In this document: positions 8,871 through 15,365 of the stretch, piece by piece
Numbering within the stretch: the stretch's first letter is position 1
Layout: the number at the start of each line of letters is the position of its first letter
NCBI GenBank assembly: GCA_944323745.1
Contig: CALUTQ010000002.1
Span: forward strand, 434,001-498,000
Direction of reading: 5' to 3'
Origin: Candidatus Avelusimicrobium pullarium
GTDB lineage: Bacteria; Elusimicrobiota; Elusimicrobia; Elusimicrobiales; Elusimicrobiaceae
Length of the DNA stretch: 64,000 nucleotides
Made by a program: the position numbers and the translations under genes
Notes under the pieces: generated by a model
Database searches by the model: none
What the model was told of the DNA's origin: nothing
What the model saw: only the letters and a program-made list of their open reading frames with translations

Positions 8871-11800
8871 TTAACGTACCCAGCCGTTTTTATCGCGGTA
8901 TTTAAAATAGTTATTCAGCGCGCGGAGCAGATTTTCTTCCCCTTTCAATAAAGATAAATGCCGCGTGGAAAGGTAACCGTCAAACCCTTCCGCCAGCAAC
9001 TTGGCGCCGTCCACCACTTCATCGGGGAAGCTGCTGGAAGCAATTACGGCCGTATGATTATTGCCGTTTTGCCGCAGCCAAGACACCACATAGCGCGAGC
9101 TGCCGTCAGGAAAGTTCAAGTCCGTCAAAATTAAATCAAACTCTTTGCCGTTATGCAGCTGGGTCATAAATTCGTCTATGCCGCGGTAAAAAGACCACTC
9201 GGCATTTTCCCCGATATTGGCTTTTTTGAGCCAACCTTTATAATTTTCCACAATAAGTCCGTCATCATTTAAAACGGCCACCCGCAGATTTTTGGGCAAA
9301 GACGCCCGTTTGGCCTGCAGCCACTCGTCTTTTTTAGCGTAAGAAGCAAACTTTTTGGTGGTTTTATAGGCTTTGCCGCTCGGGTCGCGCAAGAAAAACT
9401 CCTTGTGGTTATACACGCGGTCCGGCCGTGTAAAAACAGGCGCTTCCAATACGCGCCCGCGCTGCAGGGGCAGCAGCGTTTCCACGGCATTGTCCAGCCA
9501 GTCCACTGCGCTTTGCAGGGCTTTGTCCTGCAGGTTCTTCTTTTGGAAAAAGAGCATTTTAGAGCGCAGATCCAGCATCCGGTCGCGCAAGGCACGCCGT
9601 TCCATCATATCCAAAGACGCCAAACGGTTTTTGGCGTAATAGAACGACGTGTTGACGTCTCTTTTTACGCCTTCAAAATCGCTGACTAATGCGCTATATT
9701 CCTGCTGCAGGGCCAGACGGCGCTTGGCCGAAAGTTTAGGCGCTTTCCAAGCCACGTCCTGCACCGGCGTTACGGACACCGGAATGCGGAAGAACGACGA
9801 TTCCACGCGCCCGTCAAAAGGTTTTACGCTGCGGTGTTCAAAAATGTATTTGGCCGCCGGCGAGGAAAAAACCGCTTTAAATTCTTCCGGTGCAAACACA
9901 GGCGTAATGCCCTTGGGATATTTGGGCACGCGGGCAAAGAGCTGGCTGGCCGTTTGGGCCACATAATCTACCCATTGTTTTTTGAGCAGTACAAAAGGTA
10001 CATAGTCTTCCTCAGAAAGCTTGGTTTGAATTTTTCCCCAAAAGAATCCGTCCGGTCCCACGCGGTCCGGTGGCAAAGAAGCCGCCTGCGCCAGCAGACG
10101 CGGAGAATTTTCTCTCCATTTGTTCATATTCAGCACATTTTCAGGGTAGCGGCTCTGTAAGTTGCGCAAATTGGCAAGCAGCACGTCGTTAGTGCGCGAT
10201 TGGGCCACCCCATACAGCATATTTAAATCTTGACGCAGGGAGAGCAGCGTTTTTTGCTCTTCGGGGGCGGCGCGTTTTATTTCGCCGTCCAAGCGGCGCA
10301 GGCTTTCCCGCAGCGGATAAATTTCTTTGCCGTCCACCCAGGCACGGGCCGCCAGCCCGTCGCCGTTATGGGTAATGCGCTGCAGCATTTTATCAAACAG
10401 TTTCTGCCGCACGGAGCCGGACACTGTTTGCGCCGGCAGCACTTCTTTTACGGAATGCTGCATCGGGGCGGCGGTAACAAACCAGTCCGTATTGGACAAG
10501 TTTTTAAATTCTTTTGCTTTTTGCAAATCGTCAAGCAATGCGCCCGAAAAACAGCTGTTTACATACACCGAATTGTGTTTGGAAGGCACCTTGGGCAATT
10601 GCTGCAAAAAGTCCTGCGCGGAGAATATTAAATTGGGCGAGGGCTCCCCGTCTATCATAATGGCTTTCCATTTTCTGCTGCGGGAAATGCCGCCGCGCGT
10701 ATGAAGCAAGAGCACGTTTTCCTGCCCTTCTTTAAACAGACGCAGTACATCTTCCATTGGCATAAATTGCGCTATTTTCGGGCGGAAAAAGCCAAACATC
10801 GTTTTGCGCGCCCAAGCCTGGTCCGGCCCCAAACCGTCCCCCCACAAAAACACGGCATTGGGTGTAGGCTCCAGCCGGGGAAAGTAAGCCAAACGGTTTT
10901 GCAGTTCCAGCAATTTACCGCCGTTAAGATAGCGGTCTTTATACAAAGCCCGTTTTAACGCATTATATTCTTTTAACTGCAGGGCAGAAAACGTCTCTTT
11001 CTGTTGACCGAGTTCCCGCAAATGCATACGCAAGGCCGAAGCGGCCGGCAAGGCGTCATCCGTCCACAAAAGGGAACCTTCCGCAGCAAATTCGTCGGAC
11101 CATTTTACGATGTTGGCAATTTCTCTGTCGGCGGCCGGATGCAAAGCGGCCGGCTGTGTGCGGCGCCATTGTTTGACTAAAAGCAAATATCGTTCCGCCA
11201 AGGCCCGACGGGAAGCCCTGTTAAAAAGACCGTTCTGCGCCCCCCGCACCGCAGGCACCCATCCTTCCGCCCCGGCCTGCTGGTTATACAAACGGTACAA
11301 TTGCTCCGCCGCGTCCGTCTGGCGTTCCAAGCGGGCATAAAGCGACACGTCCTGCAACGCTTCGCGCATAGCGGCGGGGTCATCTTTCAAATCGGCTATT
11401 TCCTTCACACCGCGGTCCGTCCATTTCTTTTTCAGCTCGCTCATTACGGAGCGGCCCTGCTGCAGGGACGGCCCCATATCCCGCACCGTCACATCCGCCA
11501 AAAGCTGCTGTTCCCAGCCGGCGGCATTCGTTTTTTGCAATTGTTTGATCTGCCCCAAACGCTGAGTGGCATATTCCAAATCTTTTGCGGCAGAGGCACT
11601 TAAACGCAGCGGGTTTTGGCCTTTTGCCGCCCCGCGGACGGCAGGGGCCGTTTTAAACAAATCAAACATCTCTTTAGCCGTATCGGCCACATAATCTACC
11701 CAGCGTTTTTCCAGCCGCAAAAACGGCGACAAATTGACCGCTACATCCACGGACCAGGGCTTAAAACCCCACAAGAATTCCCCTCCGTCCTTGGCGCTTA

Positions 11801-14800
11801 AGGCGCTGGCCAAGGCGGCTCTGTCGGCATATTCCACCGCCTTCGGATAATGCCAAATGAAAGTTTCCAACGCTCTTGCCAGCTGGCTCTGGTCGGTTGC
11901 TTCGGCAATGTCAAAAAGCATTTGCAAATCGTCCTGCAGGGCCTGCAAAGAAGGTTTCTTCTCGGCCGGCGCGGCGGCAATTTCCCTTTCCAAACGCTGC
12001 AGGCTGGCCCGCAGCGGATAAAGGTCTCTCCCGTCCACCCAGGCACGGGCCGCCAGCCCCGCCCCGTTATCGGTCATATTTATCAGCAATTTATTAAACA
12101 GCCGCTCCCGCGCGGTAACGCCGCTTACACGGGCCGGCACCGGCAGGGAAGAAGCCGGCTGCATCGGGGCGGAAAAAACGAACCAATTTGTCCGAAAAGC
12201 GGCCGGCGGATATTTTGCAAACAGGGCGGGCAAATCGTGAAACAACATCCCCGTTTGGCAGCTGTGAATGTAAACGGAGGTAAGCGGACTGTCCGCCGCC
12301 AAAGCGCCCTGTATTATCTTTTCGGCCGACAGGGTGGCCATAGGGCGTGTTTCCCCCGGTTTGGCCTGGCGCAAAATGCCTTTCCATTGTCCGTTTTGGG
12401 AAACATAACCGTGGCCGTTTACAAACAAAATATTTTCTTTGCCTTTTTGGAAAGCTGACGCAATTTCCTCAAAGGGCCGTGCGGTAAAACGGTTATTTAA
12501 CGGAAAACCGAACGGCGTTTTGCGCATCAGCAAATCGTAACCGAAAAAGCCGTCCCCCACCGCCCATACCGTATGGGGCGTTTTTTGGATAAACGGCAAA
12601 TTTAAAATTTGCAGTTGTAACAGGAACGCTTCATCCGGCCCCAAATAAGAAGTTTGCAATTGGCGCCAAATGCGGGCGGCTTCCTGCTGCTGCACGGGCG
12701 AAAGATTCCCCAACGTACGCAGCTGCTGCAGGCGTGCACGCATAGCATACAAAGAAGCGATGCCGTCTTCCGGCCACACACGCAGAGCGGGGTCTGCCAT
12801 ATCGTCGGCCAGTTTAACGGCGGCATAGAGTTTTTTGCTTAGCGTTGCTTTCAGCGGGTCGGAGCCTTGCGGCAAAGCGGCCAGCCGGCGCTGAATAAGC
12901 GCAATATTTTCTTCCGCCAGTTTTCTTCTGCCGTAAGCGGAAAACAAAAAATTATCTTTAGGCAAAGAAGCCAATAAATTTTCTTCCGGCAATTTGGCGG
13001 CTTGGCGCGCGGCCTGGTAAAAAGCAAGGTCTTTTTCCAGCTGGATATATTTATCTGCCTGAGCAAGGGCTTCTTTCATTTTTTGCGGGTTTTGGCCCAA
13101 TCTATTCAGCCACGTTTCCGGAATGCCTTTCCATTGGGTTTGCATTTGCTTCATCTGCTGCAGCGCTTGCACCGCGGCCGGACGCAAAGCTTGCACGGCC
13201 TGCGGCGTAAAAGCGGCTTTTTGGGCGGTGGTTTGCGCTGTCAAACGCAGCTGGCGCAAGCCAGGCCCCGCATCAGGCGCAGGCGTCACGGCGGCAGCAG
13301 AACCGGCGGGCAGGGCTTTTGTTGCAGAAGCAACGGAGACGGCCGGCTCTTTTAACGGAGCCATCAGCCGCACGCGCGGGGCAAAGGCCGTCTGCCAAAC
13401 ATGTTCCGCCGAGGCAAAGGCGGGGCGGGTTTCTATAGCCGTTACTTGAACAACAGGGAAAGAAGCCTTATGTTGTGCGTTCTGTTGCAAAGAAGCCAAT
13501 GTTTGGCTTAATTGGACTTTAACATTTTGCAACGTCTTGGTTTGTACAACGCGCATTTTTTTCAATCGGCCCGATAAAGACGCCAAGCGCCGCGCATCGG
13601 CCGTTACGCGGCCGGCACGTATGGCGTTGAAACCTCTTTTTAAAGACACGCCCCATTGCACGCCCTTAACGGCTGCCACCGGCAGGGCGGCGGTATAATA
13701 AATACCCAACCCCAAATCAACGGCGGCGGATACTTGGCGTACCGCCTGATAAATTTTTTGACCGGTTACTTTGCGCCGATAGGTACCGCTTTGGCGGTCA
13801 TACTTTTCAAATGAGGCTTCCGGCAAAGCAGGGAAGGAAATTTTTTCTTTTTCCAGACGGGCAATTTCGGCTTCCAGCCCCCAGCGTTCCGGCAGGCCTT
13901 GTTCGTCTGCGGCGGTAAAGTTTTCCAGCGGGTTGGCCAGCAGTTGCGCCCGTCGCGCAAGCAAAGGCTGCAGCTGCCGGTCTACTTGGCGGTTATGTTC
14001 CAAGGCCTGGCGGCGGCGCTCCTGCGCGGCGGCAAAATCTTTTTCAAACACGCCATAGAGCAAATTATCCAGCCGCAGTTCCGTTTCGGCGTTAAGGTCC
14101 CCCATTATGTTTTCAAAATACAAACGGGCGGTTAAAGAAGCCGGCGACAAATGCAGTTTGCGGGCCGCTTTTTGCAAGGGTTCCTCGGCCCCGTCACGCA
14201 CACCGGCAGACAAAGCACCCGCCAAAAAGGGCAGCAGCGTTTGGCAGCGTACGGAAGCAAAATACAGCTCGCCTTCGGCGCTCAGCGGCAGGCCGTCTTG
14301 TACGTCGCCCATTTGCACCTCGCAGCTGCCCAAACCGTATTCGGCCAGCAACGCCGCCGATTGAGCACTCGGGCGGCCTTCATTATAAAGCAGGCGGGCC
14401 ATTTCTTCCCACACATTGCCGTCGGCCTGTCCATATAAACCGGGCAAAACGCCCAAAGCGCTTACGTTGCCCAAATAGCGCCCGTTGCTGTATTGCACTT
14501 TATTGAGCCACCAACCCGTCATAAATACGTCAATTTTTTGCCAGAAGGTTTCCCCTTCCTGCTCCACGGCTTCTTCCAGTACGCGGTCTAACAAAGCTTC
14601 TTGTTTTAAATGCAGCAAAGCGGTTGTGCCCGTAAGCAATTCCCGCCCGATAAGCGCCTGGCGGACGTCTTCCTGCAAAACACGGGCTATTAAACGGGCG
14701 TCCTGCTCCGAAGACGCCAACAGGGCCAGCCCGTCCAGCGCGTCGGCGCGGCCCTCGCAGAACAAACGGTAGCCGCTGCCTTGACCGCAGCGGGCGGAAG

Positions 14801-15365
14801 AAGAAAGAATTTGGCGGAAAAGTTCTTTTAAGGCCGCCAGATCTTGTTTGGAAAACAAGGCATATTGCTGCTGCAGCGGCAGCATTTGGCGGGCGATTTC
14901 AAGCACGGTTTGCGTAACAATGGGGTAATAGGCGCCGTCGCGGTGATACAAGGCCATCATTTCGGCCAAAGCCGTGCGAATTTGTGCCAAATCCGCAGCC
15001 GACAAAGCCGTTTCTTGCGCAGCAGCGGAAGGCGGCTCGTCCTGGCCCTGCAAAAACGCCGTGCGCCATTGCTGTGCCTGACGGTAAACGGAGCTGTTGC
15101 GGTATAGGGCTAAATCGGTTAAATTGGCTTGGTGTATATTGGCGCTTTCGTAGGCGTTTTTGGGGGAAGGGTTGTTGTTTTTATACGAATCGTAAGCGCC
15201 TTGTTCGCCGCGGCGGGCCACGCGGCGCATCGTATTGGAAAGGTGATCCAGCCAGCCCGATTTTTCATAAAACGACGCGTTGGGCCTTTCCATAGCGAAA
15301 GCCCCGTTTGCCGCATACAAAAACAAAACGGACGTTAAAAATACAATGCAAGAACGGTAAATCAT
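8871..15365 (-). CDS. Giant exported protein with tandem caspase/CHAT-like repeats and a receiver-like C terminus
   Basis: 2164 residues. A Sec signal peptide of about 24 residues opens it. Residues 25-700 are mostly helical and coiled-coil-like with no family I recognise. Two related blocks of about 500 residues follow (roughly 740-1240 and 1310-1815), each ending in a WVDYVA segment. Block 1 has ILFVNGHGY (H985) and, 51 residues on, VYIHSCQTG (C1036), the His-Gly / Ser-Cys pattern of clan CD caspase or CHAT peptidases. In block 2 the Cys is kept (VYVNSCFSG, C1605) but the aligned His is Arg (R1557), suggesting an inactive copy. Residues about 2025-2164 resemble a response-regulator receiver: VAVLNDDG, ILTDLNF (D2082) and VIASSS, but the usual Lys is absent. 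A receiver in an exported protein is odd. The -10 is TATACT, 8 nt from the ATG. The gene is certain; the domain calls come from motifs only. Confidence 0.8.
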   Translation of the reverse strand: MIYRSCIVFLTSVLFLYAANGAFAMERPNASFYEKSGWLDHLSNTMRRVARRGEQGAYDSYKNNNPSPKNAYESANIHQANLTDLALYRNSSVYRQAQQWRTAFLQGQDEPPSAAAQETALSAADLAQIRTALAEMMALYHRDGAYYPIVTQTVLEIARQMLPLQQQYALFSKQDLAALKELFRQILSSSARCGQGSGYRLFCEGRADALDGLALLASSEQDARLIARVLQEDVRQALIGRELLTGTTALLHLKQEALLDRVLEEAVEQEGETFWQKIDVFMTGWWLNKVQYSNGRYLGNVSALGVLPGLYGQADGNVWEEMARLLYNEGRPSAQSAALLAEYGLGSCEVQMGDVQDGLPLSAEGELYFASVRCQTLLPFLAGALSAGVRDGAEEPLQKAARKLHLSPASLTARLYFENIMGDLNAETELRLDNLLYGVFEKDFAAAQERRRQALEHNRQVDRQLQPLLARRAQLLANPLENFTAADEQGLPERWGLEAEIARLEKEKISFPALPEASFEKYDRQSGTYRRKVTGQKIYQAVRQVSAAVDLGLGIYYTAALPVAAVKGVQWGVSLKRGFNAIRAGRVTADARRLASLSGRLKKMRVVQTKTLQNVKVQLSQTLASLQQNAQHKASFPVVQVTAIETRPAFASAEHVWQTAFAPRVRLMAPLKEPAVSVASATKALPAGSAAAVTPAPDAGPGLRQLRLTAQTTAQKAAFTPQAVQALRPAAVQALQQMKQMQTQWKGIPETWLNRLGQNPQKMKEALAQADKYIQLEKDLAFYQAARQAAKLPEENLLASLPKDNFLFSAYGRRKLAEENIALIQRRLAALPQGSDPLKATLSKKLYAAVKLADDMADPALRVWPEDGIASLYAMRARLQQLRTLGNLSPVQQQEAARIWRQLQTSYLGPDEAFLLQLQILNLPFIQKTPHTVWAVGDGFFGYDLLMRKTPFGFPLNNRFTARPFEEIASAFQKGKENILFVNGHGYVSQNGQWKGILRQAKPGETRPMATLSAEKIIQGALAADSPLTSVYIHSCQTGMLFHDLPALFAKYPPAAFRTNWFVFSAPMQPASSLPVPARVSGVTARERLFNKLLINMTDNGAGLAARAWVDGRDLYPLRASLQRLEREIAAAPAEKKPSLQALQDDLQMLFDIAEATDQSQLARALETFIWHYPKAVEYADRAALASALSAKDGGEFLWGFKPWSVDVAVNLSPFLRLEKRWVDYVADTAKEMFDLFKTAPAVRGAAKGQNPLRLSASAAKDLEYATQRLGQIKQLQKTNAAGWEQQLLADVTVRDMGPSLQQGRSVMSELKKKWTDRGVKEIADLKDDPAAMREALQDVSLYARLERQTDAAEQLYRLYNQQAGAEGWVPAVRGAQNGLFNRASRRALAERYLLLVKQWRRTQPAALHPAADREIANIVKWSDEFAAEGSLLWTDDALPAASALRMHLRELGQQKETFSALQLKEYNALKRALYKDRYLNGGKLLELQNRLAYFPRLEPTPNAVFLWGDGLGPDQAWARKTMFGFFRPKIAQFMPMEDVLRLFKEGQENVLLLHTRGGISRSRKWKAIMIDGEPSPNLIFSAQDFLQQLPKVPSKHNSVYVNSCFSGALLDDLQKAKEFKNLSNTDWFVTAAPMQHSVKEVLPAQTVSGSVRQKLFDKMLQRITHNGDGLAARAWVDGKEIYPLRESLRRLDGEIKRAAPEEQKTLLSLRQDLNMLYGVAQSRTNDVLLANLRNLQSRYPENVLNMNKWRENSPRLLAQAASLPPDRVGPDGFFWGKIQTKLSEEDYVPFVLLKKQWVDYVAQTASQLFARVPKYPKGITPVFAPEEFKAVFSSPAAKYIFEHRSVKPFDGRVESSFFRIPVSVTPVQDVAWKAPKLSAKRRLALQQEYSALVSDFEGVKRDVNTSFYYAKNRLASLDMMERRALRDRMLDLRSKMLFFQKKNLQDKALQSAVDWLDNAVETLLPLQRGRVLEAPVFTRPDRVYNHKEFFLRDPSGKAYKTTKKFASYAKKDEWLQAKRASLPKNLRVAVLNDDGLIVENYKGWLKKANIGENAEWSFYRGIDEFMTQLHNGKEFDLILTDLNFPDGSSRYVVSWLRQNGNNHTAVIASSSFPDEVVDGAKLLAEGFDGYLSTRHLSLLKGEENLLRALNNYFKYRDKNGWVR

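Follow-up and report, generated by a model that had tools for sequence, protein, structure and literature searches.

Layout of the gene and its protein

We analyzed a stretch of 64,000 nucleotides from the gut bacterium Candidatus Avelusimicrobium pullarium, a member of the little-studied phylum Elusimicrobiota; this whole stretch is called the window below. Our subject is an ATG-initiated open reading frame (ORF) of 2164 codons at positions 8871-15365 on the minus strand, to which all coordinates given for its parts also refer. The host genome comprises 1.6 Mb, and its nearest named relatives belong to Candidatus Avelusimicrobium and to uncultured Elusimicrobiales of animal guts. Several genomes of this genus encode long homologues, with identities from 72% down to ~35%, and at the loci where both flanks were readable the position of the gene was syntenic within Candidatus Avelusimicrobium. 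The 2164-residue ORF is a genuine gene. A first-pass annotation of the DNA had described an exported protein of this length, and the ORF, its signal peptide, the orthologues at the same locus and the synteny bore this out. The ORF, the repeats, the predicted folds, the conserved residues, the signal peptides and the family distribution described below were all computed.

The protein starts with a typical signal peptide (residues 1-24, MIYRSCIVFLTSVLFLYAANGAFA, positions 15294-15365; Kyte-Doolittle hydropathy [KD] 1.88), equivalents of which are present in the orthologues. It is followed by an N-terminal domain (residues 25-440, positions 14046-15293) that appears all-helical by eye, by two caspase-like units and by a C-terminal receiver-like domain. 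Several orthologues stop directly after the second unit and lack the receiver. A separate downstream receiver gene was ruled out for these, as the ORF ends after unit 2 and is followed by the conserved neighbor; no receiver gene was found behind the receiver-less orthologues at that locus.

The two caspase-like units

The repeat unit is ~550 residues long, and the two copies lie ~570 residues apart, as had been proposed from the sequence. For a profile search with the unit, nine homologues were taken from GTDB contigs. The profile detected two units in the 2164-residue protein and in seven of the nine fetched homologues, and one unit in the two more distant ones; in orthologues the two copies scored E < 1e-160. 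Unit 1 (residues 731-1240, positions 11646-13175) consists of a helical part (residues 731-894) and a clan CD core (residues 895-1240). Its AlphaFold model, built with 18 unit sequences, had a predicted local distance difference test score (pLDDT) of 86.4 and a predicted template modeling score of 0.82. Foldseek alone gave weak E-values for this model (best 0.012); in a second structural alignment the top matches were the Raptor caspase-like domain (Z 11.6), MALT1 (Z 10.5), caspases, legumain and PIG-K, all of which share one fold. Unit 2 (residues 1306-1815, positions 9921-11450) was modeled separately from unit 1, together with the C terminus (pLDDT 83), and matched legumain (4nol_A) with Z 11.0 over 162 residues. 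Both units thus had the caspase-hemoglobinase fold and scored Z values of ~9-11.6 against caspases, MALT1, legumain, Raptor and PIG-K.

Structure prediction with fold comparison had been set beforehand as the test of the domain calls, and it returned a caspase-like fold (Z up to 11.6) for the units and a CheY-like fold (Z 12.2) for the C terminus. The label caspase/CHAT in the first-pass annotation held at the level of the clan CD fold, but CHAT was no better supported than other families, the nearest matches being Raptor, MALT1, caspases and legumain. CHAT was not among the fold matches listed, an absence that excludes nothing. When the clan CD families of Pfam (CHAT, C11, C13, C14, C25 and C80) were compared with all 18 units at E-values up to 10, no match was obtained.

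In the known clan CD peptidases (caspase C14, MALT1, legumain C13, Raptor) the His and then the Cys follow successive core strands of the same fold. When sequence positions were set against the predicted strands, H985 (NGHG; positions 12411-12413) and C1036 (HSCQTG; positions 12258-12260) of unit 1 showed this arrangement. In unit 2 the dyad is incomplete, since C1605 (positions 10551-10553) is retained and R1557 (positions 10695-10697) replaces the His. All these residues lay where the first-pass annotation had placed them, and H985 and C1036 proved conserved in the homologue survey. Cys was kept in all 18 units and His in 16 of them, in a set whose identity to unit 1 falls as low as 24-33%. 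The only two Arg-for-His cases were repeat 2 of the 2164-residue protein and repeat 2 of its nearest, 72%-identical relative; unit 2 of the other orthologues keeps the His. The earlier description of repeat 2 as degenerate was thus correct for these two genomes, to which the decay is limited. This pattern makes unit 1 look catalytic and unit 2 recently decayed: unit 1 is probably a working peptidase, and, judged from the compared sequences, the decay of unit 2 is recent and limited to this lineage.

Five distant paralogues of the same genus also retain both His and Cys, and at least two of them have clear signal peptides; for one a weak Peptidase_C13 match was found (E 0.087). Two of the five are adjacent exported proteins of 822 and 843 codons, encoded in the same genome as the 2164-residue protein but outside the window (G000:C2 ~129500-134600; L096:527-5534). 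Their C-terminal caspase-like domains retain the His as well as the Cys, the latter within an LDSC motif. In the units themselves, His or Asn usually stands two positions ahead of the Cys; unlike clan CD peptidases, the 2164-residue protein has no acidic residue there. It further differs from those peptidases in lacking a sequence match to any family, in being exported and in its tandem arrangement of units of ~550 residues, each of which includes a long helical part.

These data also bear on the idea that the protein serves as a structural scaffold at the surface or in the periplasm, with caspase and receiver folds that are all inactive binding modules, like the caspase-like domain of Raptor. 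That domain is the best fold match, unit 2 has lost its His, and the long helical parts would fit a scaffold role. The presence of His and Cys in nearly all units and in the five distant paralogues is, however, hard to explain without catalysis, and we consider such an entirely inactive protein unlikely.

The C-terminal receiver and its exported relatives

Receiver domains are regarded as cytosolic parts of phosphorelays. The receiver-like domain at the C terminus of the 2164-residue protein (residues 2026-2164, positions 8874-9290) was modeled with the alternating strand-helix order of CheY and matched CheY with Z 12.2 and a root mean square deviation of 2.3 over 127 residues. Pfam Response_reg matched 18 of 18 alignment members (best E 1.5e-13), the 2164-residue protein itself with an E-value of 2e-5 and under the gathering score. 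The domain is preceded by a helical connector (residues 1850-2019, positions 9309-9818), which accompanies the receiver in stand-alone proteins too. A match to Antarcticirhabdus (L060, E 4e-5) covered residues 1882-1984 only and was set aside as chance coiled-coil similarity.

An acidic pocket, the phospho-acceptor D2082 and the absence of the conserved Lys had been reported for this domain. D2082 (positions 9120-9122) is in place and the Lys position is occupied by T2134; of the acidic pair (positions 9264-9269), the metal-binding second acid D2034 is kept, but the first residue is N2033. The domain fits the definition of a pseudo-receiver, a receiver fold in which at least one of the five active-site residues is missing (PMC12632262). 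It is the most conserved region of the protein, with 90, 67, 66 and 44% identity to four orthologues; the values for the same four were 73, 56, 55 and 19% in core 1 and 76, 48, 47 and 39% in core 2.

The exported receiver described in the first-pass annotation exists, but it is a feature of a whole family rather than a one-off. Among the 66 genomes of the genus, 43 contained matches to the C-terminal 295 residues at E <= 1e-25; seven of these carry the fused form and 36 stand-alone proteins of ~350-540 codons, with one to five per genome and often in arrays. At a single site, flanked by a DUF1646 gene and by genes of hydrogenase/NADH-dehydrogenase type, stand-alone exported receivers occur in arrays of two to five (L036, L037, L038, L103). 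A loose signal-peptide rule was discarded because it accepted half of the background ORFs. By the strict rule used for all counts given here, a signal peptide was present in 54 of 64 stand-alone ORFs, compared to 54 of 217 background ORFs and none of the six cytosolic receivers. Among the ten stand-alone ORFs that failed, seven looked signal-peptide-like by eye and three had broken or missing N termini.

In a sister genus, exported proteins of 2354 and 2372 codons carry two mid-protein trypsin-like domains and the same kind of C-terminal receiver. In the intervening parts of these two proteins (L091:9113-16174 and L092:1960-9075), a kinase-like catalytic loop (HTDIGAN) and ADP-ribosyltransferase-like stretches were noticed, by eye only. 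Two giant ORFs with missing, contig-cut N termini were also seen, one of ~6700 codons with four receivers (L094, G140:C11) and one of ~5600 codons with two (L093, G255:C16); their receiver-like repeats share the Asn-Asp signature. The receiver family is thus a wider finding than the protein itself, as dozens of other exported proteins of this group carry the domain. The receiver module was also sought in phage records, without a match. A literature search for periplasmic, secreted or exported receiver domains, which left most subscription journals outside, yielded no relevant paper.

The residue signature was determined for 81 family receivers with readable positions (73 from the genus and eight from the sister genus). 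All 81 had Asp both at the second pocket position and at the acceptor position, and the switch Ser/Thr was found in 76. At the first pocket position no acid occurred (0/81) and Asn prevailed (71/81), while Lys was found at the Lys position in a single case (1/81). Six receivers without a signal peptide from the same genome retain the full residue set. The acceptor Asp, second pocket Asp, Ser/Thr switch and fold of CheY-like receivers (PF00072) are shared by the domain studied here, which differs in being exported, in having lost the first acid and the Lys, and in scoring under the Pfam gathering threshold. These exchanges suggest that the exported receiver has been altered so that the usual phosphate signal no longer operates.

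An alternative in which phosphate would still act places the C-terminal half in the cytosol: a weakly hydrophobic stretch (residues 548-566, positions 13668-13724; KD 1.49) would form a membrane helix, the caspase units and the receiver would lie inside, and phosphate from a histidine kinase would switch the protease. In favor of this topology, the stretch is conserved in orthologues and D2082 is kept in every member of the family. The stretch contains an Asp and a Pro, however, and is barely more hydrophobic than residues 367-385, so that a membrane helix is possible but unlikely here. In the stand-alone relatives the signal peptide is the only hydrophobic stretch of this kind outside the receiver core, and two residues on which normal phosphotransfer depends, the Lys and the first acid, are gone. 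We regard a cytosolic C-terminal half as improbable; export of the 2164-residue protein is supported by the signal peptides predicted in its orthologues and in almost every stand-alone relative.

Large exported proteins with caspase-like domains, single or arrayed, upstream of C-terminal toxin domains have been described among polymorphic toxins (PMC3482391). The caspase units might accordingly process or release a C-terminal effector, and the middle part of the protein does differ between lineages. Polymorphic toxins are recognized by a C-terminal toxin domain and an adjacent immunity gene; here the C terminus is a receiver fold and no toxin domain, and several orthologues end with a caspase unit. 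At the loci with both flanks readable, an aldo/keto reductase and/or a DUF362 protein is encoded on one side and a macro-domain, a uracil-DNA glycosylase (UDG)-like and/or a VTT-domain protein on the other, all of them housekeeping families with no recognized immunity gene among them. As the locus is moreover syntenic and the receiver slowly evolving, a toxin-like function appears improbable.

Proposed role of the protein and of the exported receivers

The reading we prefer, with a probability of roughly 55%, is an exported modular cysteine-protease scaffold with a catalytic unit 1, a pseudo-enzyme unit 2 and a metal-dependent, phosphorylation-independent receiver. Cleavage of the signal peptide would leave the protein in the periplasm or beyond, where the helical N-terminal domain would present the two caspase-fold units. 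Unit 1 would be a clan CD cysteine peptidase acting through H985/C1036. Unit 2, which keeps the fold and the Cys, would most likely be a pseudo-enzyme partner, because the His was lost in this lineage. The receiver fold would take no part in a phosphorelay; located outside the cytosol, it would serve in binding or regulation in a Ca2+/Mg2+-dependent manner, and would do the same job in the stand-alone exported proteins. Peptidase activity, the inactivity of unit 2, metal binding and any control of the protease by the receiver are what we infer from the computed features.

A metal-dependent module is proposed because the metal ligands D2034 and D2082 and the Ser/Thr switch are kept while one acid and the Lys are lost. 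In receivers the metal is in direct contact with the second pocket residue but reaches the first via water, and in typical pseudo-receivers the second acid is lost in ~80% and the first in only ~20% (PMC12632262). Bacterial pseudo-receivers, like the exported receivers, miss part of the five-residue active site, but the exported family reverses their usual loss pattern, with the second acid kept and the first lost in 81 of 81 cases, and this reversal favors a metal-dependent role. The same review states that the mechanisms switching pseudo-receivers are unknown, and it does not mention periplasmic or extracellular ones (PMC12632262). From the residue pattern we infer that the receiver fold has been put to a new use outside the cytosol, as a module that depends on metal and not on phosphorylation. 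More tentatively, the Elusimicrobiaceae may have turned an exported receiver fold into a family of metal-dependent switches that work on their own, encoded in gene arrays, and also as C-terminal control domains of exported proteases with two unrelated folds, caspase-like and trypsin-like.

Several observations weigh against the protease scaffold. Profile searches of the units against Pfam, NCBIfam and PDB gave no useful match, and a family assignment of the caspase units by sequence only was dropped since these profiles were uninformative. Substrate preference cannot be read from the residue two before the Cys, activity and metal binding of the 2164-residue protein are predictions, and the weak hydrophobic stretch leaves some doubt about the topology. 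Half of the genomes with caspase units have no receiver, and therefore the receiver is not needed for the protease part. Nor is a partnership in trans visible: caspase units occurred in 14 and stand-alone receivers in 36 of the 66 genomes of the genus, with an overlap of 0. The chance of such zero overlap is ~2e-6 if kinship is disregarded, and shared ancestry may explain it.

Over a hundred exported receivers in one lineage amount to a natural experiment on the receiver fold without phosphotransfer, in which all sampled members keep the metal ligands and nearly all lose the Lys. A family with one clearly retained feature would allow a direct test of how pseudo-receivers are switched. The caspase-like units add a clan CD family without a match to the known ones, its dyad being kept in tandem units and distant paralogues. 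Among 295 genomes sampled across the phylum, these units were confined to this one gut genus. The N-terminal domain is also found in other exported proteins of 1400-1870 residues, one of them in the same genome. A paralogue of 1770 codons (G000:C1:628126-633435; L039:6126-11435), whose middle and end gave no Pfam match, has only this domain in common with the 2164-residue protein.

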